From Pseudonocardia autotrophica (GTDB lineage: Bacteria; Actinomycetota; Actinomycetes; Mycobacteriales; Pseudonocardiaceae), in the NCBI RefSeq assembly GCF_000717175.1, contig NZ_JNYD01000025.1, positions 23,204 through 87,203 on the forward strand: DNA of 64,000 bases, in the 5' to 3' direction. Shown here one piece after another: positions 7,675-53,011 of the stretch; the first letter of the stretch is position 1, and every line of letters starts with the position of its first letter. Below the pieces are notes generated by a model that worked only from the letters and a program-made list of their open reading frames with translations, was not told the DNA's origin and searched no databases. A program made the translations under genes and the position numbers.

Positions 7675-7686
7675 GGTCGGAGCTCC

Positions 7687-30231: not shown

Positions 30232-30252
30232 AGCTTGATCTTTAACCTGCTG
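30232..30252 (+). repeat. Left terminal inverted repeat of the insertion sequence
   Basis: 21 bases starting AGCTTGATCTTTAACC, exactly complementary to 31803-31823. The transposase reading frame runs through this end into flanking DNA without an internal stop codon. Confidence 0.88.
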
Positions 30253-33645: not shown

Positions 33646-34980
33646 TCACCGCGGCGCGCCGTGCAGGTCCCCGGTGGCCGCTGGGGGCTCTACCGTGGCC
33701 ATTTCGACGTTCCGGGTGTCGCCCAGCCCGAGTGTGCACAGCGTGCTGATCAGCGCCAGGAACGCGAGGTAGAACCCGAGCGCGATGCTGCCGAATGCGT
33801 CGACGAGCAGTCCAGCGACCAGCGGCGTGATCGCGCCGCCGAGCACGCCGGCGAGGTTGTACGACAGGCCCGCACCGGTGTAGCGGTACTGCGCGCTGAA
33901 CAGCTCGGGCAGCATCGCGCCGACCGGGCCGTAGGCGAAGCCCACCACGCCGAGGACGAGGCACAGGCCCAGGCCGAAGGCCCATGCCGTGCCGATGTCC
34001 AGCACCGGGAACGCGATGACGCCGACGACGATCGAGGCCAGGTTGCCCCACAGCACGAGCTTCTTGCGCCCTGCCCGGTCCGACCAGATCGCGCCGACGA
34101 TTGTTGTCGCCGCAAAGGCGAGTCCGCCAAGGATGCCCAGGGCGAGGACCGTGGTGCGCGGGTGCTTCAAAACGGAAGTGCCGTAGGTGGTCAGGTAGGT
34201 GACTCCGATGTAGAAGAAGCCGAACACCGTGGTCGTCATGAACGAGGCGAGGAGGATCTCGCGCGGCTGGCGGGTGATCACGTCGAGCACGGGCAGCTTG
34301 GCGATCGAGCCGGAGTTCTTGGCCGCCCTGAACGACTCGGTCTCCTCGATCTTCAGGCGGACGAACAGCCCCAGACCGACGAGCAGGATGCTGCCGATGA
34401 AGGGCAGCCGCCAGCCCCAGCCGAGGAACGCCTCGTTGGACATTGTGAGGGCGGTGACCAGGAAGGTCGCACTGGACAGTGCGAACGCGACTGACGGACC
34501 CAGCTGGGGGTAGAGCGCGTATTTGCCGCGCTTGGCCTTCGGGGCGTTCTCGGCGGCGAGCAGCGTCGCACCGGCCCACTCACCGCCCACGGCGAGACCC
34601 TGCACGATGCGCAGGGCGACCAGCAGAATGGGCGCGAGGACGCCGATCGTGCCCGTGGAGGGGAGGATCCCGATTGCGACCGTGGACAGACCCATCATGA
34701 GCAGGGTCGTGACCAGGGTGCGCTTGCGGCCGATCCGGTCGCCGTAGTGCCCGAACACGATGGAGCCGAACGGTCGGGCCACGAACGCGACACCGAACGT
34801 CGCGAGCGCGAGAAGGGTGCCCTGAGCGGCCCCGAGCTCCGGGAAGAACACCTTGTTGAACACGAGCGCGGCGGCCGTACCGTAGACGAAGAAGTCATAG
34901 AACTCGATCACCGTGCCGGTCATGCTCGCGAACGCGACACGGGCCATGGGATTGCGCTGCGCTGCGCTTGTCGAGGTCAT
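33646..34980 (-). CDS. MFS transporter, metabolite:H+ symporter (MHS) family
   Basis: 444-residue symporter with about twelve membrane segments. The MHS N-terminus ASMTGTVIEFYDFFVYGTAAAL (from about residue 18) and the motif A-like FGHYGDRIGRKRTLV (about 76-90) are clear, as is QGLAVGGEWAGATLL in helix 4-5. Relatives carry shikimate, alpha-ketoglutarate, proline/betaine and aromatic acids. Last gene of the operon starting at 42416, 90 bases after the small hotdog gene; it probably imports the aryl acid or ketoacid used by the CoA ligase and oxidoreductase upstream. Start ATG 34980 has GAAAGGGA nearby. Confidence 0.9.
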   Translation of the reverse strand: MTSTSAAQRNPMARVAFASMTGTVIEFYDFFVYGTAAALVFNKVFFPELGAAQGTLLALATFGVAFVARPFGSIVFGHYGDRIGRKRTLVTTLLMMGLSTVAIGILPSTGTIGVLAPILLVALRIVQGLAVGGEWAGATLLAAENAPKAKRGKYALYPQLGPSVAFALSSATFLVTALTMSNEAFLGWGWRLPFIGSILLVGLGLFVRLKIEETESFRAAKNSGSIAKLPVLDVITRQPREILLASFMTTTVFGFFYIGVTYLTTYGTSVLKHPRTTVLALGILGGLAFAATTIVGAIWSDRAGRKKLVLWGNLASIVVGVIAFPVLDIGTAWAFGLGLCLVLGVVGFAYGPVGAMLPELFSAQYRYTGAGLSYNLAGVLGGAITPLVAGLLVDAFGSIALGFYLAFLALISTLCTLGLGDTRNVEMATVEPPAATGDLHGAPR

Positions 34981-35070
34981 GGTTCCCTTTCGAGGAGGGT
35001 CGAGCTGGACTGTGGGTGGAGCCGACTGCGGGTTCCCGGCGGCGTCGTGCCCCGGATCGGCGGGGTCGGA

Positions 35071-35391
35071 CTAGTCGACGTCGGTGTAGTGCCGCACTAC
35101 GGCGACGACCGGGAGGCCCGCACTCTCGTGGCGGATCACTGTGTCGCAGACGACCTGGTGATCTGTGTCGGCGGTCAGGGTGGACTCAGCCAGCAGGACG
35201 GCGCCGGCTCCGGGTAGGGGCCCCAGAACGTCGATGACATACCGGGAGGTGCTGGACGCGCCTGGGGCCAGCACCGCCATGGTCGCCGTGTTGGTGAGGA
35301 CCAAGAGATATCCGCTCAACACGATGCCGTCGTCGTCGAGCATCACACTCGTGACGGTCATCCTGGCCGAGGGCTTGTCAGTCTCGATCAT
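35071..35391 (-). CDS. Small hotdog-like protein (PaaI thioesterase-like), hypothetical
   Basis: 106 residues without a firm family match. The middle, NTATMAVLAPGASSTSRYVIDVLGPLP, then LLAESTLTADTDHQVVCDTVI and GLPVVAVVRHYTDV, resembles the second half of PaaI-type hotdog thioesterases (central helix plus four strands). The N-terminal strand and active-site helix with the usual HGG are missing, so it may be a shortened or non-catalytic hotdog. ATG 35391 is four bases after the CoA ligase stop, so it is probably translated with it. A role in proof-reading or binding acyl-CoA is conceivable but not shown. Confidence 0.55.
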   Translation of the reverse strand: MIETDKPSARMTVTSVMLDDDGIVLSGYLLVLTNTATMAVLAPGASSTSRYVIDVLGPLPGAGAVLLAESTLTADTDHQVVCDTVIRHESAGLPVVAVVRHYTDVD

Positions 35392-35395
35392 GCCG

Positions 35396-37057
35396 TCAGG
35401 CCTTCACCGGCGCGGGTAAGCCGATCTCCGGCCGGTTCTCGTCCTCCGGGCCGGCACTGCCGGTCAGCTCTTCGATGATGATCTGCCGCATGCGGAACTT
35501 CTGGATCTTCCCGCTTGCGGTGGTGGGGAAGGTGTCCGTGAAGCGCCATAGCGCCGGGATCTTGGAGCGGCTGATCCGCCCTCGGCAGAACGAGGTCAGC
35601 TCGGTGGCGTCGAGCTGTGTTCCGTCCTTCGGTCGTACCCAGGCCATCACCTGCTCTCCGTAGCGCTCGTGCGGGACCCCGATCACGTGGGCGTCGCCGA
35701 CGTTCGGGTGGCTGCGCAGGAGCTCCTCGACCTCTCGGGGGTAGATGTTTTCGCCCCCGCGGATGATCACGTCCTTGATGCGGCCGACGATCCGGACCGT
35801 GCCCTGCTCGTCCATCACAGCCAGGTCACCGGTGCGCATCCATCCCGTGGAGCTGATGGCCTCGGCGGTCGCCTCGGCGTTCTCCCAGTAGCCGCGCATG
35901 ACGCTGTAGCCTCGGGTGCACTGCTCGCCGGGCGTTCCGATGGGCACGATCTGACCCGTCGCTGGGTCGGCGATCTTGACCTCGACGTGTGGGGTCGGCC
36001 TGCCGACTGTGTGGTCTCGGATTTCGGGAGGGTCCGAGGGCAACGTCTGGGTGGAGATCGGGGAGGTCTCCGTCATGCCGCACACCGTGGACAGGTCCGG
36101 GACGTGTAGGCGCGTGCGGATCGACTCGAGCAGGTCCGGGGGGCACGGCGCCCCGCCGATCAGTCCGGCTCGCAGCGAGCTCAGGTCGATGCGCTGCAGT
36201 TCGGGGTGCTCGAGCATCGCCAGGTACATCGTCGGCACTCCGTAGACGGCTGTGCACCGCTCGCTCGCGACGGCCTCCAGGGTGCAGAGCGCGTCGAAAG
36301 CGCCTCCTGGGAGGACGAGCGTGGCCCCGTGCGTGCTGGCCCCGAGGGTGCCGAGCACCATCCCGAAGCAGTGGAACAGCGGTACCGGCACGCAGATGCG
36401 GTCCTGCTCGGTGAAGCCGGCCTGTGCGCCGATGAGGTAGCCGTTGTTGAGCAGGTTGTGGTGGGTCAGGGTGGCGCCCTTCGGGCGGCCCGTGGTGCCG
36501 GAGGTGTACTGGATCGCCACCGGGTCGTCGATGTGGACTCGGCGCTCGGCCTCGGCGACCGGACCGGGGTCTCCGGCCTCGAACTGCGCCCAGCCGTCTT
36601 CGAACACAACGGCCTCGCGCAGCTGCGGGCACTCCCCCGCGATCTCGGCGACGACCGCGGCGCAGTCGGTCTTGCGGTACCACGCGGAGTGGAACAACAC
36701 CGAGGTCCCCGAGTGCCGCAGGGTGTAGGCGAGCTCCGCGCTCTCGTAGGTCGGGTTGAGCGCGACGAGCACCGCGCCGATCCGCGCCGTGGCGAACTGC
36801 AGGACGATCCACTCGTACCGGTTCGCCGCCCACACGCCGACTCGGTCGCCGTTGGCGACGCCCCGGGCCAGCAGCGCGCCCGCGATCCGCCCGGCGCGTT
36901 CCCACAGCTCGGCGTAGGTCGCGCGGACGCCGAGTGTCACGTCGACGAGCGCCGTGCGCTCGCCGCAGCGCTCGACGATCCGCCGCAGGTTCTCACCGAT
37001 GGTCTCGCCGAGCAGTGGCAGGTCCGCCCGGCCGCAGGCGTAGGAGGGGAGGTTCAC
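35396..37057 (-). CDS. AMP-forming acyl-CoA/aryl-CoA ligase
   Basis: 553-residue ANL-superfamily ligase, activating a carboxylic acid to its CoA ester with ATP. Signatures: IQYTSGTTGRPKGATLTHHN (P-loop region, about 180-199), VCGMTETSP (A5), TGDLAVMDEQG (A7), IKDVIIRGGENIYPREVEE (A8) and the C-terminal catalytic lysine in TTASGKIQKF. GTG 37057 has GGAG seven bases upstream and lies four bases after the thioesterase stop. In this operon an arylacetate is a likely substrate because both the oxidoreductase product and the DpgC-like substrate are arylacetyl-CoA-type compounds. A fatty-acid substrate cannot be excluded. Confidence 0.88.
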   Translation of the reverse strand: MNLPSYACGRADLPLLGETIGENLRRIVERCGERTALVDVTLGVRATYAELWERAGRIAGALLARGVANGDRVGVWAANRYEWIVLQFATARIGAVLVALNPTYESAELAYTLRHSGTSVLFHSAWYRKTDCAAVVAEIAGECPQLREAVVFEDGWAQFEAGDPGPVAEAERRVHIDDPVAIQYTSGTTGRPKGATLTHHNLLNNGYLIGAQAGFTEQDRICVPVPLFHCFGMVLGTLGASTHGATLVLPGGAFDALCTLEAVASERCTAVYGVPTMYLAMLEHPELQRIDLSSLRAGLIGGAPCPPDLLESIRTRLHVPDLSTVCGMTETSPISTQTLPSDPPEIRDHTVGRPTPHVEVKIADPATGQIVPIGTPGEQCTRGYSVMRGYWENAEATAEAISSTGWMRTGDLAVMDEQGTVRIVGRIKDVIIRGGENIYPREVEELLRSHPNVGDAHVIGVPHERYGEQVMAWVRPKDGTQLDATELTSFCRGRISRSKIPALWRFTDTFPTTASGKIQKFRMRQIIIEELTGSAGPEDENRPEIGLPAPVKA

Positions 37058-37061
37058 CGGC

Positions 37062-37481
37062 TCACTCCCCGGCTGCGGTTGCGTGCCCGGCCTTCTGCGC
37101 CAGGCGGGCCCCGAAGTCGTCCTCGTCCACCACGAACCGCTCGTGGCGGCCGTGCGCGATGCGCTCGACGTCGTCGAACACCTCAATTCTCGTCGCGACT
37201 CGGCGCCGGTCGACCTCGACCACGGTCGCTGTGGCCGTGACCAGTTGGCCGCGCAGTGTCGGGCGAACATGGACGATGTCGACGGTGGATCCGACCGAGC
37301 TCTGACCCGACGCCAGCAGCGGCTCGATCGCGATCATCGCGGCCTCCTCGAGGAGCCGTACGACCGATGGGGTCGCGAGGACGTCGTACCCGCCGCGGTG
37401 CACGCAGTCCCCGGCGTCGACTCGGTGTTCGATCGTGCCGGGCTTGAGGGCGGCGGGCACGGTGGTGTTCGGGGCGCTCAC
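37062..37481 (-). CDS. Hotdog thioesterase (FlK-like)
   Basis: 139-residue thioesterase of the fluoroacetyl-CoA thioesterase-like group. It shows DVLATPSVVRLLEEAAMIA (the helix with the catalytic Thr/Glu-type region), SVGSTVDIVHVRPTLRG and the strand VEVDRRRVATRIEVFDD. ATG 37481 overlaps the stop of the DpgC-like gene (ATGA). It may release the product of the dioxygenase or clear dead-end CoA esters. The exact acyl group is unknown. Confidence 0.83.
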   Translation of the reverse strand: MSAPNTTVPAALKPGTIEHRVDAGDCVHRGGYDVLATPSVVRLLEEAAMIAIEPLLASGQSSVGSTVDIVHVRPTLRGQLVTATATVVEVDRRRVATRIEVFDDVERIAHGRHERFVVDEDDFGARLAQKAGHATAAGE

Positions 37482-38827
37482 TTCACACCACCGCGGCGCT
37501 TAGGGTCCCAGGCCAGCTCGAGATTACGGATGATCGCCGGCGAGTACATGCACTTGGCCTGGCCGATGGACAGGTTCGCCATGTAGGCGCGGAAGGTCTC
37601 CAGCGGCTCGGCGCCGACGCGGACCTGGGTGCGGTTGGCGTTGATGCCCACCGTACCGGTGGCGGTCAGCGCGTCCACGGCATTGGCGATGGCCGCCTGC
37701 ATGCCCGCCTCGTCGACGACCAGGTCGTCGACGATCTGGCGGCCCTCGGGCGAGTCGACGTAGATGTCGCGGTTGAAGAAGATGCCCTGGCGGGCCACCT
37801 TCTCGCCGACGAAGCGCGGCAGGCGCATGTTGCCGCAGCCGGGCAGGAAGCCCTCGCGGCGGGCCGGCAGGTTGACGTAGGCGCCGGAGCGGGCGATGAC
37901 CCGGTCCATGACCAGCAGGTACTGGCAGCCGCCGCCGATGGCGAAGGAGTCCACCGCCGCGATCCACGGCTTCTCGTGGCGGCGCTCCACGACCGACACC
38001 TCGCCGTTGCCGATCGAGTGCCCGCGGAACCACTTGTTGATCAGGCCCAGCTCCCGCTCGATGAAGAACTCGATGAGCGAGACCTCGCCGTGGTAGAGCC
38101 GGGTGAGGTTGACGCCCGCGTCGAATACCCGGCGGCCCAGATACTTCGGGTGCTGCGCCTCCGCGCCGCGCAGCAGCCCGACGTCGATCCGGTCGTCGAG
38201 CAGGATGAGGTCCGTGGCGATCTCCATCGCCCGGGTGGACTCGTCGTCCTCGGCGTTGAGGTACTTGTGGTGCTGGATGGTCAGGTGCCCGACGTTGCCC
38301 TTGCGCTCCACCAGGCTGGTGCCGAGGTCCACGCGGTCGGTGCGCCGCAGCTCGTCGAGCAGCTCGAGGGCCTCCGGCAGCGGCTGCGCCATGGCGTGCA
38401 TGAGGTGGTAGCCGGCGACCGGGTTGTCGAGGACGCGGGAGATCAGGATGCCCTGGTCGTACTCCCAGCCCTCCTTGTGCTTCTGCGGGTGCGTGCGCTC
38501 CTCGGCGATCCGCTCCCGGGTGGGCACCAGGCCGGGAATCAGGCCTGCGGCGGCGTAGGCCAGCTCGGCCACCCGCAGCAGCCGGGTGCGGTTTTCGGTC
38601 AGGGTGTCGTACAGGGTCGCGACGTGCACCGCGAGGAAGTCCTCGCGGGCGGCGCGGCCACGGTCCAGGATCGCCGACGCCGCCGCGTCCTGCTCCTCGG
38701 TGCGATCCGCCTTGGCGGGCAGCTTCGCCAGCTCGGCGTCCAGGCCGGCGAACAGTTCCGAGACGAGCGCGGCGTCCTTGTCGAAATCGCGGGTCAGCTC
38801 GATCGGGCTGTGAGAGGTGTCGACCAT
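37478..38827 (-). CDS. DpgC-like cofactor-independent arylacetyl-CoA dioxygenase
   Basis: 449-residue crotonase-superfamily protein, much longer than enoyl-CoA hydratases. It follows DpgC, which turns 3,5-dihydroxyphenylacetyl-CoA plus oxygen into the arylglyoxylate and free CoA without metal or flavin. Shared landmarks: the helical N-terminal domain with GLVPTRERIAEERTHPQKHKEG (about 114-135), FDAGVNLTRLYHGEVSLIEFF (about 240-260), and the oxyanion-hole segment VDSFAIGGGCQYLLVMDRVIA (about 293-313). It starts one base after the fused indolepyruvate oxidoreductase gene. DpgC is known mainly from glycopeptide-antibiotic clusters; no peptide synthetase is here, so a catabolic use is suggested. 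The ring substituents of the substrate are unknown. Confidence 0.83.
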   Translation of the reverse strand: MVDTSHSPIELTRDFDKDAALVSELFAGLDAELAKLPAKADRTEEQDAAASAILDRGRAAREDFLAVHVATLYDTLTENRTRLLRVAELAYAAAGLIPGLVPTRERIAEERTHPQKHKEGWEYDQGILISRVLDNPVAGYHLMHAMAQPLPEALELLDELRRTDRVDLGTSLVERKGNVGHLTIQHHKYLNAEDDESTRAMEIATDLILLDDRIDVGLLRGAEAQHPKYLGRRVFDAGVNLTRLYHGEVSLIEFFIERELGLINKWFRGHSIGNGEVSVVERRHEKPWIAAVDSFAIGGGCQYLLVMDRVIARSGAYVNLPARREGFLPGCGNMRLPRFVGEKVARQGIFFNRDIYVDSPEGRQIVDDLVVDEAGMQAAIANAVDALTATGTVGINANRTQVRVGAEPLETFRAYMANLSIGQAKCMYSPAIIRNLELAWDPKRRGGVK

Positions 38828-38828
38828 G

Positions 38829-41800
38829 TCAGCTCTCCGTCGTCGTCAGCAGGGGCAGGGAAAGGGTGTTCTTGAGCCGGCCGCGCAGGACCTCCGCGCG
38901 CTCGATGGCCTCGGCCGCCGACCGCAGCTTGATGTCCTCGTAGCCGCGGATGCCGTCGGGCAGCCGGGCGATGTCCAGCACAGCGGCCTTGTTCTGCAGC
39001 TTGAGCTCGTCCATCGAGGTGCGGACGAGGTCGATGTACCAGTCGATGAGGCGGCGCTCCTCGACGCGTATCCGGTCGCGGCCGAAGACGTCCAGCTTGG
39101 TGCCACGGACCTTCTTCATCCCGCTCAGCACGGCGAAGACCGGGTCGAGCACGCGCGCGGGCAGCTTGAGCTTGTTCTTCATGCCCATCGAGCGCAGCAT
39201 CGGCGGGTGCAGGTTGTAGGTGACCTTCACCTTGCCGGCGAACTGGCTCGACACGCGGTGCTCGCGGCTGGCGCGCAGGTGCAGGCGGGCCACCTCGTAC
39301 TCGTCCTTGTAGGCCATGAGCTTGTAGAGGTTGCGGATCACCTCGCGGGTGATCGGCAGGCCCGCCTTGTCCCCCAGGCGCGCCCGCTCGCAGCGGGCCA
39401 CGTCCAGCACGACATCGACGTAGCGCCCGGCGTACTCGGCGTCCTGGAAGGCGATCAGCTCGCCGATCCGGACGGCCAGCAGGCGCCGGTCCTCCGCGGC
39501 CAGGTCCGCGACCTTCGCGACGAGCGCGTCGTAGCCGGCGCGCTCCTTCTCCGCCAGCTGGCCGCGGACGTGCTCGCGCTCCTGCTCGGCGTCGCGCGGC
39601 GGCGGCGAGATCAGCGCGGCGACCCGGGCCGGGTCGGCCACGGCGAGCCGCCCGTAGCGGAACGCCTGCTGGTTCTGCACCCTGGCCGTGCCGTTGAGGC
39701 GAATGGCTTCCTCGATCGCGGCCGACGAGATCGGCAGCAGGCCCGCCTGGTACGCCGCGCCCACGGCCACCATGTTCGTCGCCATGTAGTCGCCGAACAG
39801 GGTCTCGGCGATCGCCCGGGCGTCCACGGCGACCGTGCGGGCGGTGAACCGGGAGATCGAGTCGATCATCGGGTCGACCGACACGTCGAGGTGGCTGTTG
39901 CGGATCATCTCGCCACTGGGCAGCAGGCCGGTGTTCACCAGCGCCGTGGTGTGCTCGGGCGAGCAGCGGTCCAGGTTGACCGGGTCGGCAGCGGCCATCG
40001 CGTCGACGGCCAGGTAGAGGTCCGCGCAGCCGATGCCGACCTTGTTCGAGTCCGCCCGCTCGCCGCGGGGGCTCAGCACCAGGCTGCTCAGCACGGCGCC
40101 CCACTTCTGGGCGGCCCCGGTCTGGTCGTAGCTGACCGCCTCGGCCCCGTCCACGAGCGCGGCCCAGGCCAGCATCGAGTTCAGGGTGAGCACGCCGGTG
40201 CCACCGACGCCGGGCACGAACACGTGGTAGGGCCGGTCGAGCGAGGGGCGCTTCGGCTCGGCCACCGCGTCGACCTCGAGCGGGGTGTAGACCGGCGCCG
40301 CGAAGCCCTCCTCGCTGTGCACGGTGAGGAAGGACGGGCAATCGCCCTTGAGGCACGAGTGGTCCTGGTTGCAGGACGACTGGTGGATCGCCGTCTTGGG
40401 CCCGAACTCGGTGTCGTTCTTGTGCAGCGACATGCAGTTCGTGACCTCGCCGCAGTCCCCGCAGTTCTCGCAGACATCCTCGTTGATCACCACGAACGTG
40501 GTGGCCTTGGGCGCGGTGCCCCGCTTGCGGCGGCGGCGGCGCTCGTTGGCGCACTCGCCGTCGTAGAGGAAAACCGTGACGCCGTCGACCTGCTCGAGGT
40601 CCTTCAGGACCTTCTGCACGTCCCCAGCACCGTGCACCGAGGCGATCGAGGGCAGGTCCGCCCTGCGGTAGACCGCCGGGTCCTCGGCGATGATGCCGAT
40701 CTTCTTCACGCCCTCGAGGGCGAGCAGGCTGGCCAGCTTCGGGACCTCGGCCTGGCCGATCGGCTCCTGAGCACCGGTGTTGGCGACCGCGCCGTTGTAG
40801 AGGATCCGATAGGTCATCTTCACGCCGGCGGCGACCGACCAGCGGATGCTCAGGTAGCTGGAGTGGAACAGGCTGCCGTCACCCTGGTTCTGGATGACGT
40901 GCTCCAGGTCGGTGAACGGGCTGAGCCCGATCCACGCGACGCCCTCGCCGCCGAGCGGGAAGGTGGCGTCGATCTGCCGCTCGGGCTGGTCCATGACCGC
41001 CGCGAAGATGTGGCAACCCGGTGCGCCCCAGGCAACCCGGCCCTCGGGCACGATCGTGGACACGTTGTGCGGGCAGCCGGAGCAATAGTTCGGTGAGCGC
41101 TTGAGGTTCGATGAGTAGTCGCGGGCCTTGACGGCTTCGAGCTGCTCGGTGCGCCGGTCCAGGATGATCTGCTCGCGCAGTCGCGGGCGCAGCACCGGAG
41201 CGAGCCCGCGCGCGACCGCGTCGGCGTCGAGGCTGCCGTACTCGGCGAAGCGCACCCGGCCCTCGAGGTCGCGCTTGCCGTGCACCCGCGGACCAGAGGC
41301 CACGTTGCAGAGGACGACCTTGATCGCGTCCTCGAGGATCGGCCGCTTCTCCTCCACGACCACGACCTCGTCGAGGTCGCGGGTGGACTCACGGACGAAC
41401 TCCGCGTCCAGCGGGTAGATCGCGCCGATCTTGACCAGCCGGACCCCGGCCGCACGCAGGTCGTCCTCTCCGATGCCGAGGTCACGCAGCGCCTGCAAGG
41501 TGTCGGCGTAGCTCTTGCCCGCGGTGACCAGGCCGAGCGTGTCGTGCGGGCCCCGGATCTTGATCTCATTGAGCCCGTTGACCTTCGCGTAGGCCACGGC
41601 CGCCGGGTGCCGCTCGGTGAAGACGTGCCGCTCGGTCTCCACGACCTTGCCGGGGAAGAACGCGTGGTCCTGCCACTTACGGAACGGGCGCCCGTCGATC
41701 TCGAACTCGGGCACCACGATCTTCAGCCGCTCGGGATCGAGGTCGATCGTCTGGCCCCCGTCGCACAGCTGGCCGATCAGCTTCATCGCCACCCAGCACC

Positions 41801-42416
41801 CCGAGTAGCGGGACATACCGATCGCGTGCGCCGAGTAGGTCAGGAACTCCTCGACCGACGAGGGGTACAACACCGGGATCCCGGCATGGGCGAAGGCGTA
41901 CTCCTGCTCGTACGGCAACGACGAACTCTTCGCCTCGTGGTCCTCGCCGGAGAGCACGACCACCGCGCCGTGCATGGTGGTGCCCGCGAAGTTGCCGTGC
42001 CGCAGCGAGTCGCCCGCACGGTCGAGACCGGGGCCCTTGCCGTACCAGAAGCCCGTGACGCCGTCGTAGCGGCTGTGCGGGTAGCGCTCCAGCAGCTGGG
42101 TGCCCATCAGGGCGGAGGCGGCGAGCTCCTCGTTCTGGCCCATCTGGTGGACGATGCCGTGCTCGCCGAGCAGCGTGCGGTTCTGCTTGAGCGAAAGGTC
42201 GTAACCGCCGAGCGGCGAGCCCGGGAAGCCGGTGATGAAGCCACCGGTGCGCAGGCCGGCTCGACGGTCGCGGCGCACCTGGTCGAGGGGCGCCCGCACG
42301 AGCGCCTGAACCCCAGTGAGGAAGACCCGGCCCTCGTCGAGCCGGAACCGGTCGCCGAGCGAGACCGTGCTCGCCGGGCGAGGCTCCTCGACACGCCGGG
42401 CTTCGACTGTCGTCAT
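38829..42416 (-). CDS. Fused indolepyruvate:ferredoxin oxidoreductase
   Basis: 1195-residue fusion of the IorA and IorB parts, oxidatively decarboxylating aryl-pyruvates to arylacetyl-CoA with thiamine diphosphate and ferredoxin. The order is an N-terminal pyrimidine-binding domain (GFPGSPLGGYD, GQNEELAAS), then thiamine-diphosphate/Fe-S binding around NYCSGCPHN (about 450) and NQGDGSLFHSSYLS. An Fe-S segment follows, with CENCGDCGEVTNC and CLKGDC (about 640-690), then the gamma-type domain VPGVGGTGVLTLNS (from about 720). An unusual C-terminal extension of about 250 residues ends the chain, as in other long fused members. ATG 42416 follows the Crp gene by 109 bases. The pairing with a DpgC-like enzyme is not something I know from other clusters. 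Confidence 0.9.
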   Translation of the reverse strand: MTTVEARRVEEPRPASTVSLGDRFRLDEGRVFLTGVQALVRAPLDQVRRDRRAGLRTGGFITGFPGSPLGGYDLSLKQNRTLLGEHGIVHQMGQNEELAASALMGTQLLERYPHSRYDGVTGFWYGKGPGLDRAGDSLRHGNFAGTTMHGAVVVLSGEDHEAKSSSLPYEQEYAFAHAGIPVLYPSSVEEFLTYSAHAIGMSRYSGCWVAMKLIGQLCDGGQTIDLDPERLKIVVPEFEIDGRPFRKWQDHAFFPGKVVETERHVFTERHPAAVAYAKVNGLNEIKIRGPHDTLGLVTAGKSYADTLQALRDLGIGEDDLRAAGVRLVKIGAIYPLDAEFVRESTRDLDEVVVVEEKRPILEDAIKVVLCNVASGPRVHGKRDLEGRVRFAEYGSLDADAVARGLAPVLRPRLREQIILDRRTEQLEAVKARDYSSNLKRSPNYCSGCPHNVSTIVPEGRVAWGAPGCHIFAAVMDQPERQIDATFPLGGEGVAWIGLSPFTDLEHVIQNQGDGSLFHSSYLSIRWSVAAGVKMTYRILYNGAVANTGAQEPIGQAEVPKLASLLALEGVKKIGIIAEDPAVYRRADLPSIASVHGAGDVQKVLKDLEQVDGVTVFLYDGECANERRRRRKRGTAPKATTFVVINEDVCENCGDCGEVTNCMSLHKNDTEFGPKTAIHQSSCNQDHSCLKGDCPSFLTVHSEEGFAAPVYTPLEVDAVAEPKRPSLDRPYHVFVPGVGGTGVLTLNSMLAWAALVDGAEAVSYDQTGAAQKWGAVLSSLVLSPRGERADSNKVGIGCADLYLAVDAMAAADPVNLDRCSPEHTTALVNTGLLPSGEMIRNSHLDVSVDPMIDSISRFTARTVAVDARAIAETLFGDYMATNMVAVGAAYQAGLLPISSAAIEEAIRLNGTARVQNQQAFRYGRLAVADPARVAALISPPPRDAEQEREHVRGQLAEKERAGYDALVAKVADLAAEDRRLLAVRIGELIAFQDAEYAGRYVDVVLDVARCERARLGDKAGLPITREVIRNLYKLMAYKDEYEVARLHLRASREHRVSSQFAGKVKVTYNLHPPMLRSMGMKNKLKLPARVLDPVFAVLSGMKKVRGTKLDVFGRDRIRVEERRLIDWYIDLVRTSMDELKLQNKAAVLDIARLPDGIRGYEDIKLRSAAEAIERAEVLRGRLKNTLSLPLLTTTES

Positions 42417-42480
42417 GAATGCTCCACGTCCTCGTCAGTGATGACCGGCGAAGCCTGGCAAGGAGTGCCGCACACCGTCG

Positions 42481-42494
42481 GTAACACGTGATAC
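42481..42494. promoter_or_regulatory. CACGTG-centred palindrome before the oxidoreductase gene
   Basis: GTAACACGTGATAC, matching its own complement at 12 of 14 positions, lies 65 bases before the oxidoreductase start and 32 bases after the Crp/Fnr stop. It could be a control site for the operon; no second copy was found, so the assignment is weak. Confidence 0.35.
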
Positions 42495-42525
42495 GGACCG
42501 CCGAGAAAGTGCAGCAGCAACCGGC

Positions 42526-43254
42526 TCAGGGCCGGTAATCCCCGGCAACAACACGCAGGGCCGCGACGTCCGGGACGACGATCTCCCGTCCACGGCGGAT
42601 CACCAGCCCGTCGTCGATCAGACGAGCGAGCTCCCGACTCATGGTCACCCGGGTCACGCCGATCATGAGTGCGAGCTCGTCGAGCGAGTACTGGACCCGC
42701 AGGCGCACGCCTTCCGGGCAGGGGATCCCGTAGGCCTCGACAAGGTGGTCGAGTATGAGGGCGACGCGGCCGCAGGCCGGGAGGCCGTCAGCCGCGATGT
42801 GCATGGCGAAGAGTCGGGCCTTGCGGGAGATCCGTCGGGTCATCTCCACGAGGATCTCCGGCTCGAGCCGGCCCGCGTCGAGCACCGCGCGCTTGCTGAC
42901 CGCCAGCAGTTCGCTGTCCACCATCGCGACACATGAGGCGTAGCGCGGCAGCCCGTCGAAGCAGGTCGACTCCCCGATCCCCGCGCCGGGCTCGGCGTAG
43001 GAGAGCACACGCTCGGTCCCGTCGGCACGAGTGAGATAGATCCGCAGGCGCCCCCTGACCACCTGGAAGAAATAGTCGGACAGGGAGCCCTGCCGGTAGA
43101 CGAACTGCCCCGCCCGGTACCTGCGCGGCTGACCGAGCGCGGCGATTTGCTGAGCGATGGTGGGGTCCTCGGTCAGCAGGAACGGCGAGGTGATCGACAC
43201 CGACGGGGCGCGCCCGTACCCGCCCGATTCGTCGAGTTCCTGCTGTCCAGTCAT
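42526..43254 (-). CDS. Crp/Fnr-family transcriptional regulator
   Basis: 242-residue regulator. An N-terminal cyclic-nucleotide-binding-like barrel (RRYRAGQFVYRQGSLSDYFF, GAGIGESTCFDGLPRYASC) joins a C-terminal winged helix with the recognition segment YSLDELALMIGVTRVTMSREL (about residues 186-206). The barrel phosphate-binding arginine motif is changed (GESTCFDGLPRYAS instead of GE.AL....RAA), so cAMP may not be the ligand. No N-terminal Fnr cysteine cluster is seen. It is transcribed towards the oxidoreductase/DpgC operon and likely controls it. Confidence 0.88.
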   Translation of the reverse strand: MTGQQELDESGGYGRAPSVSITSPFLLTEDPTIAQQIAALGQPRRYRAGQFVYRQGSLSDYFFQVVRGRLRIYLTRADGTERVLSYAEPGAGIGESTCFDGLPRYASCVAMVDSELLAVSKRAVLDAGRLEPEILVEMTRRISRKARLFAMHIAADGLPACGRVALILDHLVEAYGIPCPEGVRLRVQYSLDELALMIGVTRVTMSRELARLIDDGLVIRRGREIVVPDVAALRVVAGDYRP

Positions 43255-43519: not shown

Positions 43520-43990
43520 TCAGTGTTGCTTCATCGCCGATGATGCCGCCTCGATCGCGTCGACAATGCCTTGGTAGCCGGTGCAGCGACAGATGTTGCC
43601 CGACATCTCGTCGCGGATGGTCTCCCGGTCGGCGTCGGGGTCGGTGTCGAGCAGGTGCAGGGCGCTCATCAGCATGCCGGGTGTGCAGAAGCCGCACTGC
43701 AGGCCGTGGTGGGCGACGAACGCCTCCTGCAGCGGATGCAGCTGGCCGTCGGTTCCCTCCAGGCCCTCGATCGTGGTGACCGAGGTCCCGTCGGCCTGCA
43801 CGGCGAACATCAGGCAGGCACGGGCCGGCTCCCCATCGACGAGGACGGTGCAGGCGCCGCACACCCCGTGTTCGCAGCCGAGGTGCGTGCCGGTGAGACC
43901 GCAGTCCTCACGGAGAGCGTCGGCCAGGGTCCGGCGGGGCTCGACCTGCAGATACGTTATTTCGCCGTTGACGCTGAAGCTGATGTCCAT
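43520..43990 (-). CDS. Molybdenum hydroxylase [2Fe-2S] small subunit (CoxS-like)
   Basis: 156-residue electron-transfer subunit. The plant-type cluster ligands are in GCEHGVCGACTVLVDGEPARAC (about 38-59) and the C-terminal all-helical cluster ligands in CGFCTPGM (about 99) and CRCTGYQG (about 133). All eight cysteines are present. ATG 43990 has AGGAG seven bases upstream. It partners the FAD subunit (44000-44809) and the molybdenum subunit (45542-47929). Last gene of the operon. Confidence 0.93.
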   Translation of the reverse strand: MDISFSVNGEITYLQVEPRRTLADALREDCGLTGTHLGCEHGVCGACTVLVDGEPARACLMFAVQADGTSVTTIEGLEGTDGQLHPLQEAFVAHHGLQCGFCTPGMLMSALHLLDTDPDADRETIRDEMSGNICRCTGYQGIVDAIEAASSAMKQH

Positions 43991-43999
43991 CAGTGTCTC

Positions 44000-44809
44000 C
44001 TACTCGATTCCGGCGCGGACGAGGGCGCGGCGCACCATCTCTCCCGCGATTGCGCGACGGAAGGGGGCCGAGCCGTGCAGGTCCGCGGTCGGATCGATCT
44101 CGGCGGCGGCCGCGCGGGCGGCGTCATGGGCAGTGCCCTCATCGGCAAGGACCTGCTCGGCAGCAAGGGCCCTCTGCGGAACGGCCGCGACGCCACCGAG
44201 GGTGATCCTCACCCGGCCGTCGACCTCGGCGACAACTGCCGTGACCAGCGCAAAGTCGCCGTGCCGGCGGGAGAACTCGGCAAAGCCCCACCGCGTCGGC
44301 AGCGGAAAGCGAACCCCGACGATCATCTCGTCGTCGTCGAGCGAGGTCACCAGGGCGCTCACGAAGAGCTCGTCGGCGGCGACTGTGCGCTCTCCGGTCG
44401 GGCCGGCCACCGTCGCGCTCGCCCCGACACCGACTGCGACGACCGGTAGCTCCGCGGACGGGTCAGCGTGAGCGATGCTCCCGCCGGTCGTGCCGCGGGT
44501 CCGGATCGCGGTGTGCCCGATCCAGCGCGCGGCCTCAGCGAGCAGCGGGTGGTGGGTCTGCTCCACGAGCTGGCTGTGCCGCACGAGGGCACCGACCTCG
44601 ACCGCGCCCTCCACGGGGCGGATTCGGCCCATGCCCGGGACCCGGTTGACGTCGACGAGCACGCTGGGCCGGGCCATCCGTAGGGCGAGCACGGGCACCA
44701 GGCTCTGCCCACCCGCCAGGATCTTGCCGTCGCCGTCGGCCTCGCCGAGGACCTTGACGACCTCCTCGACACTGTTGGCGCAGACGTAGTCGAACGGGGC
44801 GCACTTCAT
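44000..44809 (-). CDS. Molybdenum hydroxylase FAD-binding medium subunit (CoxM-like)
   Basis: 269-residue flavoprotein subunit of the xanthine-oxidase family. Both FAD motifs are visible: AGGQSLVPVLALR (about 32-44) and TTGGSIAHADPSAELP (about 107-122), followed by the CO_deh_flav_C region. ATG 44809 lies four bases after the enoyl-CoA hydratase stop and nine bases separate it from the Fe-S subunit gene. It passes electrons from the Fe-S subunit to an acceptor that is not known here. Confidence 0.93.
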   Translation of the reverse strand: MKCAPFDYVCANSVEEVVKVLGEADGDGKILAGGQSLVPVLALRMARPSVLVDVNRVPGMGRIRPVEGAVEVGALVRHSQLVEQTHHPLLAEAARWIGHTAIRTRGTTGGSIAHADPSAELPVVAVGVGASATVAGPTGERTVAADELFVSALVTSLDDDEMIVGVRFPLPTRWGFAEFSRRHGDFALVTAVVAEVDGRVRITLGGVAAVPQRALAAEQVLADEGTAHDAARAAAAEIDPTADLHGSAPFRRAIAGEMVRRALVRAGIE

Positions 44810-44813
44810 GCGC

Positions 44814-45545
44814 TCACTTCCCTCGGAAGACGGGCGGACGCTTCTCGGTGCGGGCGAGGCGGCCCTCGGCGAAGTCCTCGCTCGCCCAGCACCCCTCGAA
44901 CGCCGCGTTCAACTGCTTGCCCAGGAGCTCGTCGAACTCGGGCTCGAAGATCTCGTTGAGCACGCGCTTGGAGTAGGCCTGCGTGAGTGGGGCCAACGAG
45001 ATCATTCCCTGCGCCCAGGTCAGAGCCTGTTCGAGCGTGCCGGACAGATCAGCTAACCCGCATGCCAGAGCGGTGTCGGCGTCGATCTGATCGCAGGCCA
45101 CCAGCAGCCGCCGTGCCACTCCGTTGCCAGCCAGGAGCGCGAGCCGGCGGATGGTCCACGGATCGACGGCCAGCCCGATCCGTGCCGTTGGCACTGCGAA
45201 GCGGGCAGGCGCGGCGACCACGCGGAAGTCGGCAGCGATGGCGAACTGGGTGCCCGCCCCGATGGCGGCGCCGTTGACTGCCGCCACCACGGGGACCGGG
45301 GCGTCGGTGACGGCGTGCAGCATGCTGTACAGCGCATCCCGGAAGTCCGCGGTGTAGACCTCGTCGAGGTCCGCCCCGGAGCAGAAGCTGCGGCCGTTGC
45401 CGGTGAGGACAATCGCACGGGCCGCACGGGCGTCGCCGAGCGTGGTGCGGATGCGGTGGCAGAGCTCGATGTTGAGCGCGTTGTGCTTCTCCGGCCGGTC
45501 GAGGGTGATGACCGCGACGCGGTCATGCCAGGTCAGCTCGATCAC
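44814..45545 (-). CDS. Enoyl-CoA hydratase/isomerase family protein
   Basis: 243-residue crotonase-fold protein of normal length. Oxyanion-hole segments are GNGRSFCSGADLDE (about 55-68) and AAVNGAAIGAGTQFAIAADF (about 95-114). The usual hydratase glutamates are not obvious: the segment after the second loop reads FAVPTARIGLAVDPWTIRRL, with Val/Asp where Glu often stands, so isomerase or hydrolase chemistry is possible. GTG 45545 overlaps the large-subunit stop (GTGA); an ATG 18 bases upstream is an alternative. It is inserted between molybdenum-hydroxylase subunit genes, so it likely acts on the same CoA-linked pathway. Confidence 0.83.
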   Translation of the reverse strand: MIELTWHDRVAVITLDRPEKHNALNIELCHRIRTTLGDARAARAIVLTGNGRSFCSGADLDEVYTADFRDALYSMLHAVTDAPVPVVAAVNGAAIGAGTQFAIAADFRVVAAPARFAVPTARIGLAVDPWTIRRLALLAGNGVARRLLVACDQIDADTALACGLADLSGTLEQALTWAQGMISLAPLTQAYSKRVLNEIFEPEFDELLGKQLNAAFEGCWASEDFAEGRLARTEKRPPVFRGK

Positions 45546-47929
45546 GGGTGCAGCTCCTTCCACACGCTCGCCGGGCTGATCGGCAGGGTGTTCACGTCGA
45601 TGCCGAGCGCGTCGCGCAGCGCGCCGGCGAGGACCGCGTTCGGGCCGAGTGTGCCGCCCTCCCCCACGCCGCGGACCCCGATCGGGTTCGCGGCCGGGTG
45701 CGAGACGTGGCCGATGACCATGTCGGGTACCTCGGCGCTGGTGGGCATCAGGTAGTCCAGCAGCGTGCCGGTGGACAGGTTCCCGGCGTCGTCATAGACG
45801 AGGTGCTCGTAGAGCGCCCCGCCGAGGCCCTGGGCGATGGCGCCGGCGATCTGTCCGTCGACGATCTGCGGGTGCATGGCCCGGCCGGCGTCCTCGACGC
45901 AGACGTACTTCAGGATGCGCAGCTCGCCGGTGGTCCGGTCGACCTCCACGGCCGCGGCCTGGGCGCCGGCGGCGAAGGCGCCGCGGATGGGGTCGAAGAA
46001 GGTGGTGGCGTCCAGCCCGGGGTCGATACCGTCGGGTAGCCGGTTGGACTCCAGGTAGGCGACCCGAGCGAGCTCGGCGACCGAGATCTGGGCCTTGGGC
46101 TCGCCGACCACGTAGACCTCGCCGTCGACGACGCGCAGGTCGGCCTCGGCCGCCTCGATGAGCTCGGCGGCCAGCTTGACCAGCTTCTCCTTCACCGCGA
46201 CCGCGGTGTTGTGGGCCGCGCCCCCGCCGATGACGGCTTGGCGGGAGGAGAACGCGCCGAAGCCCCAGAGGGCCTCGTCGGTGTCGCCGATGCGGACGTC
46301 GACGTCGTCGTAGCCGACACCGATCGCGTCGGACACGATCTGCGCGATCATGGTCTCCGAGCCCTGGCCCTGGGAGGTGATGCCGGAGATCACGGTGACC
46401 CGCCCGTCCGGGTTGATCCGCACGGTGCAGGCGTCGTGCCCGGTGCGGAAGGGCATCCGGGGCCCGGCGCTGGCGGCGCGCCCGAGCCCGGTGAGCTCGT
46501 TGTAGAGCGCCACCCCGATCCCGATCGGGTTGTCCCCGGCCTCGCGGCGGCGGGCCTGCTCGGTGCGGAACGCGGGGTAGTCCAGGGCGTCGAGGGCCTT
46601 GTCGAGACACTCCCCGTAGTGACCGGAGTCGTCCACGAGACGGGAGGGCATCTTGTACGGGATGTCCTCGGGGGTGATGACGTTTCGGCGGCGGATCTCG
46701 ATGGCGTCGATCCCGAGTCGCGCGGCGGCGTCGTCGAACATCGCCTCCATCGCGAACACGCTGGCCGGGCGGGCGACGCCGCGGTACGGGCCGGCCGGGG
46801 CGGTGTTGGTGGCGACACCGCGCACGGTGCACCGGTAGTTGTCGAGCTTGTAGGGGCCCGAGAGCAGCCCACCGGCCATCAGCGGCTCGATGCCGGCCGT
46901 CCACGGATAGACCGAGTAGGCGCCGACGTTGCACGTGACGTCGGCCTCCAGGGCCAGCAGCGTGCCGTCGGAGGCGAACCCGGCCTTGATCAGGTAGCGG
47001 TGGTCGCGGGCGTGGGCGGCCGCGAGCAGGTGCTCGGCCCGGTCCTCCACCCACTTCAGCGGGATCCCCGGCATCTCCCGCGCCATCAGGCACAGCGCGA
47101 CGTCCTCGGGGTAGAGCACGGCCTTGACCCCGAACCCGCCGCCGACGTCCGGGGCGACGACCCGGACCTTGCCCTCCGGCACGCCCATCAGCTCGGCGAT
47201 CATGTTCCGCACGATGTGCGGCACCTGGGTGCCGTTGTAGAAGGTCAGCTTCCCGTCGGCGGCGTCCCACAGCGCCACCCCGGCACGGCACTCCATGGGA
47301 TTGCCGGCGTGCCGGTTGGTGACGAGCTCACGCTCCACGATCAGGTCGGCCGCGGTGAAGGCGTCGGTCACCGAGCCGGCGTCGAAGGTGCGCTGCAGGA
47401 GCACGTTGTCCGGGGCCTCCGGGTGCACCGGTACCTCGGGCTCCTGCCAGGCGCAGACGGTGGCCGGTAGCGCCTCGTAGTCGATGTCGACGAACTCCAG
47501 TCCGTCCTCGGCGCGGTAGCGGTCCTTCGCGACGACGGCGGCGACCGGCTCCCCGGAGAAGCAGACCTTCTCGTGGGCGAGGACGGGCTGGTCGGTCTCG
47601 ACGTAGGAGGGCAGCGCCGACTGGGCTCGCAGCACGACGTGCGAAAAGTCCTGGCCGGTGAACACCCGGTACCCGGCATCGCGGGCCGCTGTGACGTCCA
47701 CGCCGGTGATCCGGGCGTGGCCGTAGGGACTGCGCAGGAACGCCACGTGCCGCATACGCGGCAGCTCGATGTCGGTGACGTAGCGGCCGTGCCCGGTGAT
47801 CAGCCGCCGGTCCTCCTTGCGCCGGACGTTGCGGCCGAGCGAGCCGGACTTGTCTTCCGTCGCGCCCGCCGGAGCCGCCGCTGTCGCCTGCGGCGCGGCC
47901 GCGGTGCCGTCCGCCCTGTCCACGCTCAT
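45542..47929 (-). CDS. Molybdenum hydroxylase large subunit (CoxL/xanthine-oxidase family, not form I CO dehydrogenase)
   Basis: 795-residue molybdopterin-cytosine-dinucleotide subunit. Family markers are the N-terminal RRKEDRRLITGHGRYVTDI, DVGGGFGVKAV (molybdopterin loop, about 262-272) and the C-terminal GVGEGGTLGPNA with the catalytic Glu. The active-site loop reads TAPAGPYRGVARPASVF; the AYxCSFR loop with the copper-binding Cys that defines form I CO dehydrogenase is absent. It is therefore a hydroxylase of an unknown organic substrate. A 30-residue Ala-rich N-terminal extension precedes the conserved domain. ATG 47929 has AAGGAGGACAG directly upstream. Coupled to the crotonase gene and grouped with dehydrogenases and CoxG. 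Confidence 0.92.
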   Translation of the reverse strand: MSVDRADGTAAAPQATAAAPAGATEDKSGSLGRNVRRKEDRRLITGHGRYVTDIELPRMRHVAFLRSPYGHARITGVDVTAARDAGYRVFTGQDFSHVVLRAQSALPSYVETDQPVLAHEKVCFSGEPVAAVVAKDRYRAEDGLEFVDIDYEALPATVCAWQEPEVPVHPEAPDNVLLQRTFDAGSVTDAFTAADLIVERELVTNRHAGNPMECRAGVALWDAADGKLTFYNGTQVPHIVRNMIAELMGVPEGKVRVVAPDVGGGFGVKAVLYPEDVALCLMAREMPGIPLKWVEDRAEHLLAAAHARDHRYLIKAGFASDGTLLALEADVTCNVGAYSVYPWTAGIEPLMAGGLLSGPYKLDNYRCTVRGVATNTAPAGPYRGVARPASVFAMEAMFDDAAARLGIDAIEIRRRNVITPEDIPYKMPSRLVDDSGHYGECLDKALDALDYPAFRTEQARRREAGDNPIGIGVALYNELTGLGRAASAGPRMPFRTGHDACTVRINPDGRVTVISGITSQGQGSETMIAQIVSDAIGVGYDDVDVRIGDTDEALWGFGAFSSRQAVIGGGAAHNTAVAVKEKLVKLAAELIEAAEADLRVVDGEVYVVGEPKAQISVAELARVAYLESNRLPDGIDPGLDATTFFDPIRGAFAAGAQAAAVEVDRTTGELRILKYVCVEDAGRAMHPQIVDGQIAGAIAQGLGGALYEHLVYDDAGNLSTGTLLDYLMPTSAEVPDMVIGHVSHPAANPIGVRGVGEGGTLGPNAVLAGALRDALGIDVNTLPISPASVWKELHP

Positions 47930-47966
47930 CTGTCCTCCTTGCTGCAGTGTGGCCGACCCGGACTGC

Positions 47967-48731
47967 TCAGGGCATCGCGTAGCCGCCGTTGACCGAGACG
48001 ACCTGCCCGGTGGTCCAGGACGACAGCGGCGAGGCGAGCAGCAGCACCATCGGGGTGATGTCGTCCGGATGCCCGACCCGCCGCAGGGGGTACTGGGCGA
48101 GGATCTTCTTCATCTGCTCGGCCTCGGGCGTGCCGGCGTGGGCGTCGAAGTTGTCGGTGCGGACCAGCGCGAGGGACACGGCGTTGGCGCGGATCCCGAA
48201 CCGGGCCAGCTCCTTGGCCAGCGAACGGGTGAGCCCCACCGTGGTGGAGCGAGCGGTGGCGGTGACCAGCAGACCGGACTCCCCCACCCGGCCCGAGTCG
48301 CCCATGAGGTTCACGATCGACCCGGACCTGCGCTCGGCCATCCGCGTGGCGACGGCGTGGGTCAGCTGCAGCGTCCCGGTGACGGTGACGTCGATCTGCG
48401 GTGCCCAGTCCTGGGGGGTCGACTCGAGAAAGCGCTGCTTCTTGGTCACCGCCGAGTTGTTGACCAGCACCTCGATCGGCCCGAGCTCGGTCTCGACGCG
48501 CTCGACGATGCCGGCCACGGCGTCGACATCGCGCAGGTCACCGCCGACGGCGATGGCCTTGACGCCCAGCTCGGCGGCTTCGGCGGCGGCCTTCTCGGCG
48601 CCGTCGGCGGAGGAGTTGTAGTGGAACGCGACGTTGGCGCCCTCGCGGGCGAAACCGAGCCCGAGCGCCCGGCCCAGGCCCTGCCCGGCACCGGTGACCA
48701 GGACGTTCGTTCCGGAAAGCTGAAGATCCAT
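47967..48731 (-). CDS. SDR-fold protein with an altered catalytic site
   Basis: 254-residue SDR with a normal cofactor motif TGAGQGLGRALG (about 13-24), NNSAV near 90 and the C-terminal TTGQVVSVNGGYAMP. The active site is unusual: where FabG-like enzymes have Ser, Tyr and Lys (SS..G, YxxSK), this reads NLMGDSGRVGESG and LVTATARSTTVGLTRSLAKEL, with Thr for Tyr and Arg for Lys and Gly at the Ser position. It may bind NAD(P)H without classical reduction, use other residues or act as a decoy subunit. ATG 48731 has AGGAG upstream. It sits between the metallo-beta-lactamase-fold hydrolase and the molybdenum large subunit. Confidence 0.87.
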   Translation of the reverse strand: MDLQLSGTNVLVTGAGQGLGRALGLGFAREGANVAFHYNSSADGAEKAAAEAAELGVKAIAVGGDLRDVDAVAGIVERVETELGPIEVLVNNSAVTKKQRFLESTPQDWAPQIDVTVTGTLQLTHAVATRMAERRSGSIVNLMGDSGRVGESGLLVTATARSTTVGLTRSLAKELARFGIRANAVSLALVRTDNFDAHAGTPEAEQMKKILAQYPLRRVGHPDDITPMVLLLASPLSSWTTGQVVSVNGGYAMP

Positions 48732-48744
48732 GACGTGGTGTCTC

Positions 48745-52926: not shown

Positions 52927-52944
52927 TGCTTCTCCGCGCTCCTC

Positions 52945-52968
52945 ACTAACTAACGCTCCTTAGTTACT
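52945..52968. promoter_or_regulatory. Candidate TetR operator before the CoxG operon
   Basis: Contains TAACTAA-CGCTCC-TTAGTTA (52947-52966), a perfect 7-base inverted repeat around six bases. The core CTAACG-N2-C-N2-TAGT recurs at 56633-56657 and 57003-57024. It lies in the 85-base gap between the acyl-CoA synthetase stop and the CoxG start, so the CoxG operon has its own control point. Confidence 0.72.
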
Positions 52969-53011
52969 ATAGGCCGACGAGGGCCTCCAGCCAAACGACA
53001 GGTGCGCTCGG

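Follow-up and report, generated by a model that had tools for sequence, protein, structure and literature searches.

A DpgC-like gene paired with a fused 2-oxoacid:ferredoxin oxidoreductase gene in Pseudonocardia suggests a possible aerobic route from arylacetates to aroyl-coenzyme A

Introduction

For phenylacetate, the usual account of aerobic breakdown is the Paa epoxidase route, in which the ring is epoxidized with the two-carbon side chain still attached. Anaerobically, the Pad enzymes carry phenylacetyl-coenzyme A (CoA) to benzoyl-CoA, and the phenylglyoxylate oxidoreductase of that pathway belongs to the superfamily of indolepyruvate-type 2-oxoacid:ferredoxin oxidoreductases (IOR). The anaerobic conversion runs from phenylacetyl-CoA through phenylglyoxylate to benzoyl-CoA, as outlined in an excerpt of PMC9765128. 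DpgC of glycopeptide antibiotic biosynthesis is a (3,5-dihydroxyphenyl)acetyl-CoA 1,2-dioxygenase (structures 2np9 and 4ylh). Here we analyse a locus (positions 33646–43254) in a 64,000-nucleotide stretch of Pseudonocardia DNA, hereafter the window, in which the gene for a DpgC-like protein lies one base from that of a fused IOR. The locus may constitute an aerobic catabolic module that would shorten the side chain of arylacetates by one carbon, a reading to which we give a probability of about one half.

No description of an aerobic route through DpgC, arylglyoxylate and the benzoyl-CoA (box) pathway was found in the open-licence PMC literature; subscription papers and preprints lay outside the search and may describe it. 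Judged by title, those of the open-licence papers listed that are plainly on this DpgC, PMC10548524 among them, concern glycopeptides, other natural products or the reaction mechanism. The DPGC of anaerobic phloroglucinol degradation, as it appears in an excerpt of PMC10470551, is an unrelated enzyme with the same abbreviation and was set aside.

Results

The DpgC-like protein (449 residues; 37478..38827, minus strand) is matched over residues 30–435 by NF042432, the NCBIfam model of DpgC (430.5 bits, E 8e-129), and the solved DpgC 2np9 aligns over residues 14–433 (E 5e-99), so that the protein is full-length, with the N-terminal helical region as well as the crotonase core. The curated equivalog cut-off of NF042432, 530 bits, is not reached, and we therefore refer to a DpgC homologue and do not call it the same enzyme. 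The top structural match of an AlphaFold model (pLDDT 91) is DpgC 4ylh, with a TM score of 0.88 by query and 0.94 by target. DpgC chains in general gave 0.87–0.89 by query and 0.93–0.95 by target, at 44% identity in the structural alignment, and ordinary crotonase-fold proteins among the matches listed align to the core only (0.40–0.51 by query). For the active site, the DpgC residues R254, A319 and V425 were taken from the titles of PDB entries, and E189, H222 and Q299 are residues that we take to be functional. R258, A322, E193, H226 and Q302 of the window protein are identical to DpgC R254, A319, E189, H222 and Q299, and V425 is replaced by I432. The first-pass annotation of the window had made its reading depend beforehand on the presence of the DpgC residues, which, the V425 to I change apart, are in place.

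A genome scan yielded 362 stretches encoding DpgC relatives, antibiotic-type ones included, and the locus counts below cover the best 80 of the 362. In a tree of 105 rows (the best 80 loci and further sequences), built by a quick method with a midpoint root and leaving several forks open, the window protein falls in a 76-row group (SH-aLRT 100) that includes none of the 21 DpgB-linked rows and has members from Actinomycetota, Chloroflexota, Pseudomonadota, Myxococcota, SAR324 and others. Residue counts, which omit the eight rows outside both groups (L086, L090, L092, L094, L096, L106, L109 and L113), give E189 and R254 in 75 rows of the group each, Q299 and A319 in all 76 and H222 in 59; E, R, Q and A are each kept in 21/21 DpgB-linked rows and H in 20/21. 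The position of V425 is L in 61 rows of the group, I in 8 and V in 4. Three signature positions mark the group: T242 (76/76; K in 19/21 DpgB-linked rows), C301 (75/76; M, T or A in the DpgB-linked rows) and C426 (73/76; R in 21/21). As most catalytic residues are conserved and the group has signature residues of its own, the window protein has probably kept the chemistry of DpgC and changed its substrate, and we propose that it is a cofactor-free arylacetyl-CoA 1,2-dioxygenase. An arylacetyl-CoA substrate and a role outside antibiotic synthesis, both suggested at first pass, gain support from the homology, the residues and the separate group.

The adjoining gene (38829..42416, minus strand) encodes a fused IOR of 1195 residues, which scores 1229 bits against the subfamily model NF009589 (curated cut-off 816) and has a CxxCxxC motif from residue 649 and a GDG motif at 512; no solved IOR structure was found at E ≤ 0.001 for an active-site comparison. 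The IOR stop at 38829 and the DpgC-like start at 38827 leave a gap of one base, and the matches to NF042432, 2np9 and NF009589 and the coordinates bear out the pairing first reported. Nor is it unique to one genome: an upstream IOR gene precedes DpgC, in the same orientation, in 8 of the 80 loci, own record counted, from Pseudonocardiaceae (L009, the own locus; L010–L013; L021) and Myxococcota (L036 and L038). In L011 and L021 the IOR match is fragmented, hence the wider apparent gaps to DpgC, and the L021 copy is frame-broken. The IORs of seven of these loci, L021 being the one left out, form a single group (support 100/99) apart from 14 other IORs, and beside it in the tree lie those of four further genomes with DpgC, in which the two genes are not adjacent. 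Five pairs of DpgC and IOR on contigs of exactly equal length in protein lists (8607, 20801, 6872, 14689 and 9704) may represent five additional linked pairs. A frame-broken version of the cluster is present in another Pseudonocardia assembly (L021/L154 in G443; L002 in G029), with a DpgC 86–91% identical in pieces, and may reflect decay or sequencing error.

Ligase genes are more frequent neighbours of DpgC. A paaK gene, counted when its product was at least 45% identical to the PaaK of L041 (two matches of 23 and 26%, in L009 and L013, were left out), lies within 2.5 kb of DpgC in 17/80 loci, and 13 of the 17 have both genes in one orientation. When five of these neighbours were scored with the curated model, those of L039, L041 and L037 passed the cut-off and those of L025 and L056 fell below it. 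An AMP-type ligase is near DpgC in 15/80 loci, some of them from Streptomyces, and an FlK-like gene in 12/80, confirmed by Pfam for the window, L026 and L151 (the same locus as L056). The genes for DpgC, the FlK-like protein and a ligase are consecutive, as in the window, in L024, L026, L034 and L035; because no PaaK above 220 bits was found in the genomes of these loci (G446, G448, G456 and G457), the neighbouring ligase would be their best candidate for activating arylacetate. For the AMP-forming ligase of the window we likewise propose arylacetate-CoA ligase activity. The presence of PaaK was tried as a test of IOR direction and discarded, as it does not discriminate: all eight IOR-DpgC genomes have PaaK-family matches, over the cut-off in five (G432–G435 and G443) and short of it in both Myxococcota, whereas the best matches in the own strain are half-length and at contig ends.

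The gene for benzoyl-CoA epoxidase, boxB, lies within about 2.2 kb of DpgC in 4/80 loci, with IOR also near DpgC in L036 and L038 and PaaK in L037 and L056. A boxC-boxB-boxD-like run faces IOR-DpgC in L038/L119 (749, 791 and 675 bits, all over the curated cut-offs), as does boxC-boxB in L036/L152. L056/L151 has boxC-boxB (907 and 901 bits, over the cut-offs), then PaaK and DpgC, then an FlK-type gene. In L037/L150 one strand carries, in succession, the end of boxB (C-terminal half, 365 bits), paaK and dpgC, with four bases between the first two and a four-base overlap between the last two. None of the 80 loci was seen to bring together a ligase, an alpha-oxidation enzyme, an oxidoreductase for arylglyoxylate and the benzoyl-CoA pathway; the partial sets are IOR-DpgC-box (L036 and L038), box-PaaK-DpgC (L037 and L056) and, in the window, IOR-DpgC-ligase.

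At the level of whole genomes, many of them drafts, boxB is over the cut-off in 14 of the 16 genome handles with this type of DpgC or IOR, or in 13 of 15 strains once G000 and G431, both from one strain, are counted once. Of 34 other locus genomes, 22 have boxB over the cut-off and a further three carry partial or split copies only. The gene is also over the cut-off in 36 of the 60 relatives searched, own genome included, and co-occurrence in Pseudonocardia was therefore rejected as support. In the class of G448, where 54 of 289 sampled genomes have boxB, the gene is found in 5/9 genomes with DpgC (E ≤ 1e-60) versus 49/280 others (Fisher p 0.013), or in 4/8 versus 49/280 without the centre genome (p 0.04), a weak association that is uncorrected for relatedness. 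With many drafts again in the set, paaA is over the cut-off in 9/16 handles and had no match in G458 and G460, the Myxococcota with the IOR-DpgC pair, nor in G450 and G454.

DpgC relatives at E ≤ 1e-60 are present in 4/195 Myxococcota genomes and in 24/397 of a Mycobacteriales sample, in which, the own match apart, none is more than 47% identical; 15 plasmid records carry a relative, each below 60% identity. A long branch of the DpgC tree unites L071 and L074, both from Bradyrhizobium. In three genomes of the class of G448 (L144–L146), none with boxB, the DpgC relative stands beside an acyl-CoA dehydrogenase-like gene, perhaps another use of the family. In L046, L048, L050, L051, L080 and L082 DpgC is followed by a 150-residue gene of one family, identified in L050 as hemerythrin (Pfam PF01814); a hemerythrin-motif protein belongs to the BoxR/BenR regulons as listed in an excerpt of PMC6449761. 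The window's DpgC group also has Streptomyces members (L017–L020 and L022). In one, L018, a peptide synthetase of 3213 residues (Pfam) and an aminotransferase-like gene adjoin DpgC, and the making of arylglycine-type products may therefore be another task that the group has taken on.

The genes of the locus are all on the minus strand and are transcribed in the order regulator, IOR, DpgC-like protein, FlK-type thioesterase, CoA ligase, small protein and transporter; those compared are 100% identical to the record of Pseudonocardia halophobica VKM Ac-1069 (locus L009). The Crp/Fnr-type regulator (42526..43254; Pfam cNMP_binding and HTH_Crp_2) has a homologue preceding IOR in all five other Pseudonocardiaceae IOR-DpgC loci (L010–L013 and L021), and IOR starts 109 bases past it. 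The FlK-type hotdog thioesterase gene (37062..37481; Pfam PF22636, 99.7 bits) overlaps the DpgC-like stop by 4 bases. For the AMP-forming acyl-CoA ligase (35396..37057; Pfam AMP-binding) the open reading frame (ORF) in the mechanical list begins too early, and the GTG at 37057, directly past the thioesterase stop, is the likely start. A small protein of 106 residues (35071..35391), with homologues in L010, L013 and L021, and an MHS-type metabolite:H+ symporter (33646..34980; TIGR00883, 399 bits, below the cut-off of 443) complete the run, and the gene spacing suggests that IOR through transporter form one operon. Profile matches thus uphold the ligase, the regulator and, below its curated cut-off, the transporter named in the first-pass annotation. 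Of its two hotdog proteins the FlK-type one stands, and the other, the 106-residue protein, matched no Pfam or NCBIfam family. Its statement that no peptide synthetase is present agrees with our finding neither such a gene nor an aminotransferase among the window ORFs scanned, which were not every ORF; DpgB had no match in L009, although 21 of the loci searched do match.

Further genes flank the operon at 43520–56629. A molybdenum hydroxylase of three subunits with an internal enoyl-CoA hydratase-like gene (43520..47929, minus strand) adjoins the locus and is DpgC-linked in L013, L014, L015 and L021, and next to it lie genes for an SDR, an MBL-fold hydrolase, an alcohol dehydrogenase, an aldehyde dehydrogenase and a second CoA ligase (47967..54646, minus strand). 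Parts of this set are DpgC-linked in Pseudonocardiaceae L011–L015 and L021, and in Actinomycetospora L014 and L015 ligase, MBL-fold hydrolase, SDR, hydroxylase and DpgC make one run without IOR. A gene family common to L010, L011 and L021 also occurs near DpgC, its L010 member being a pyridoxal phosphate-dependent decarboxylase (Pfam). The flanking genes and the decarboxylase would fit the feeding of arylacetate from an arylethylamine or arylethanol, which does not account for the molybdenum enzyme and the MBL-fold hydrolase. On contig C17 of the own genome (L148) another pair of molybdenum-hydroxylase-like genes (43 and 40% identity to those of the window) lies on the opposite strand near a boxC-boxB run (6236–9299). 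At 29880–31776 of the window, two ORFs with partial matches to the NF041680 transposase family sit between an aromatic-acid-type MFS transporter gene and a cluster-flanking acyl-CoA dehydrogenase gene.

Discussion

Onto the observed gene content, family membership, active-site conservation and linkage we would place a route that we infer in each of its reactions, in the direction given to IOR and in the nature of the ring, which may be phenyl, hydroxyphenyl or another. Arylacetate would be taken up by the MHS transporter and activated by the AMP-forming ligase to arylacetyl-CoA. The DpgC-like enzyme would deprotonate the alpha carbon and add O2 without metal or cofactor, yielding arylglyoxylate and free CoA, and the fused IOR would decarboxylate arylglyoxylate oxidatively to aroyl-CoA, CO2 and reduced ferredoxin; it might also accept arylpyruvate and so feed the DpgC step. 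Aroyl-CoA would be hydrolysed by the FlK-type thioesterase or enter the box pathway. A catabolic role, and the longer route from arylacetate through aroyl-CoA to the box pathway, are argued for by the related DpgC genes that adjoin PaaK and boxB. IOR is placed after DpgC because benzoyl-CoA requires a CoA-dependent oxidative decarboxylation, which is possible for the IOR superfamily, and because this is the anaerobic order. The most likely product of the window IOR is thus aroyl-CoA, formed from arylglyoxylate, in place of arylacetyl-CoA or in addition to it, and we propose that the enzyme is an arylglyoxylate oxidoreductase that perhaps takes arylpyruvate too. This alters the first-pass annotation, which had the route start at arylpyruvate and end at arylglyoxylate: with PaaK near DpgC in 17/80 loci, an AMP-type ligase in 15/80, IOR in 8/80 and boxB in 4/80, arylacetate is the likelier start and aroyl-CoA the likelier end, and IOR would follow DpgC or take both 2-oxo acids. 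At slightly less than even odds, Actinomycetota, Myxococcota, Pseudomonadota, Chloroflexota and others may share an aerobic route from arylacetate through arylglyoxylate and aroyl-CoA to the box pathway, which would be the oxic equivalent of the anaerobic route and would offer another way besides Paa, the antibiotic DpgC being one branch of a mostly catabolic family.

Several observations weigh against this proposal. In 72/80 DpgC loci, a few of them on short contigs, IOR is missing from the surrounding 2.5 kb. A fused IOR at E ≤ 1e-60 is also missing from G445, G447 and G478, three of the 13 genomes searched to cover 13 of the 17 PaaK loci. Because of these absences IOR cannot be the sole enzyme of the third step, and the Actinomycetospora loci L014 and L015, in which DpgC has no IOR beside it, speak against a fixed role for IOR. 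Phyla such as Rokubacteria also have IORs of this broad type (54–60% identical), and the 14 comparison IORs were our selection among lower-identity matches, so that the IOR group in the tree may not be specific to DpgC. No box gene was found near the locus in the window, the own boxB being on another contig; none of the five Streptomyces members has boxB, and the gene is so common among relatives that its co-occurrence there carries no information. Finally, paaA is present in the own genome, and at least one Streptomyces member of the DpgC group adjoins a peptide synthetase.

The strongest alternative, although we consider it unlikely, retains the order first annotated, in which IOR acts only on arylpyruvate to give arylacetyl-CoA, DpgC makes arylglyoxylate and enzymes elsewhere (a decarboxylase or an aminotransferase) follow. 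It is favoured by IorAB of Aromatoleum, reported in an excerpt of PMC9765128 to make phenylacetyl-CoA from phenylpyruvate, and by the phenylglycine supply of pristinamycin, for which phenylpyruvate, phenylacetyl-CoA and phenylglyoxylate are proposed as successive compounds via PglB/C, PglA and PglD in an excerpt of PMC7089894. In the two Myxococcota, moreover, no ligase was found beside the IOR-DpgC pair (the L036 contig ends just before IOR), but both genomes have PaaK-family ligases elsewhere, below the cut-off (567 and 546 versus 646 bits). The gene run of the window includes a ligase, many loci have DpgC and a ligase without IOR, and IOR confined to arylpyruvate gives no way to benzoyl-CoA, yet boxB and boxC adjoin IOR-DpgC in both Myxococcota.

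Less probable still is that the DpgC-like enzyme oxidizes an acyl-CoA of heteroaryl or non-aryl type whose alpha carbon is acidic, with IOR acting on an unusual 2-oxo acid. Molybdenum hydroxylases and MBL-fold hydrolases are seen in heterocycle degradation, and both are DpgC-linked in Pseudonocardiaceae; at the positions of T242, C301 and C426, antibiotic-type DpgC consistently has other residues. EdcC, which belongs to this IOR family, is tied to a ring-cleavage 2-oxo acid in aerobic oestrogen degradation, and family members are linked to 2-oxo acids other than arylpyruvates, according to an excerpt of PMC7793797. The linkage to PaaK and boxB in the wider group, however, indicates plain phenylacetyl-CoA and benzoyl-CoA. 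Supply of arylglyoxylate or arylglycine for a secondary metabolite, the established function of DpgC, seen with DpgB beside it in 21 of the loci searched and echoed by the peptide synthetase and aminotransferase-like gene of L018, is improbable here, as the scanned window ORFs include neither gene and the closest relatives carry ligases, several also with a transporter and aldehyde and alcohol dehydrogenases.

If the arylacetate to aroyl-CoA route is correct, there would be a second aerobic route for phenylacetate in which the key oxygenation is metal-free, and one benzoyl-CoA pathway would serve arylacetates too. Many genomes would be reread, a relative being encoded in each of the 362 stretches, antibiotic-type ones among them, and a function would fall to proteins that currently carry the name enoyl-CoA hydratase or thioesterase DpgC. 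The proposal also offers an origin of the antibiotic DpgC that can be tested. It should be emphasized that the linkage is more general than one genome could show, and that the putative enzymes are assigned by homology and linkage.

Comparison with described systems places the locus among several of them. With glycopeptide DpgC the window protein has in common the fold and R254, A319, E189, Q299 and H222, but it belongs to a separate tree group and has I for V425 together with T242, C301 and C426; in contrast with the Dpg antibiotic cluster, the locus has no DpgB match and its DpgC group is linked to ligases, IOR and box genes. The proposed pristinamycin pathway of PglA–E, from phenylpyruvate through phenylacetyl-CoA to phenylglyoxylate (excerpt of PMC7089894), shares intermediates with the window route, but is biosynthetic, uses pyruvate dehydrogenase-like PglB/C in place of IOR and has an aminotransferase last. 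EdcC and other fused IORs of aerobes (excerpt of PMC7793797) place the family in aerobic catabolism, as proposed here, although the substrate and partners of EdcC differ from those of the window IOR. The Paa and box pathways are, like the window route, CoA-bound aerobic aromatic catabolism, and box would take its product; unlike Paa, the window route would shorten the side chain first. The anaerobic phenylacetyl-CoA pathway has the same intermediates as the route proposed, but it oxidizes the alpha carbon without O2 via phenylglyoxylyl-CoA, whereas the window route would use an O2-dependent, cofactor-free enzyme. The locus is best read, at even odds, as encoding a catabolic route that uses oxygen and corresponds to the anaerobic one for phenylacetate.

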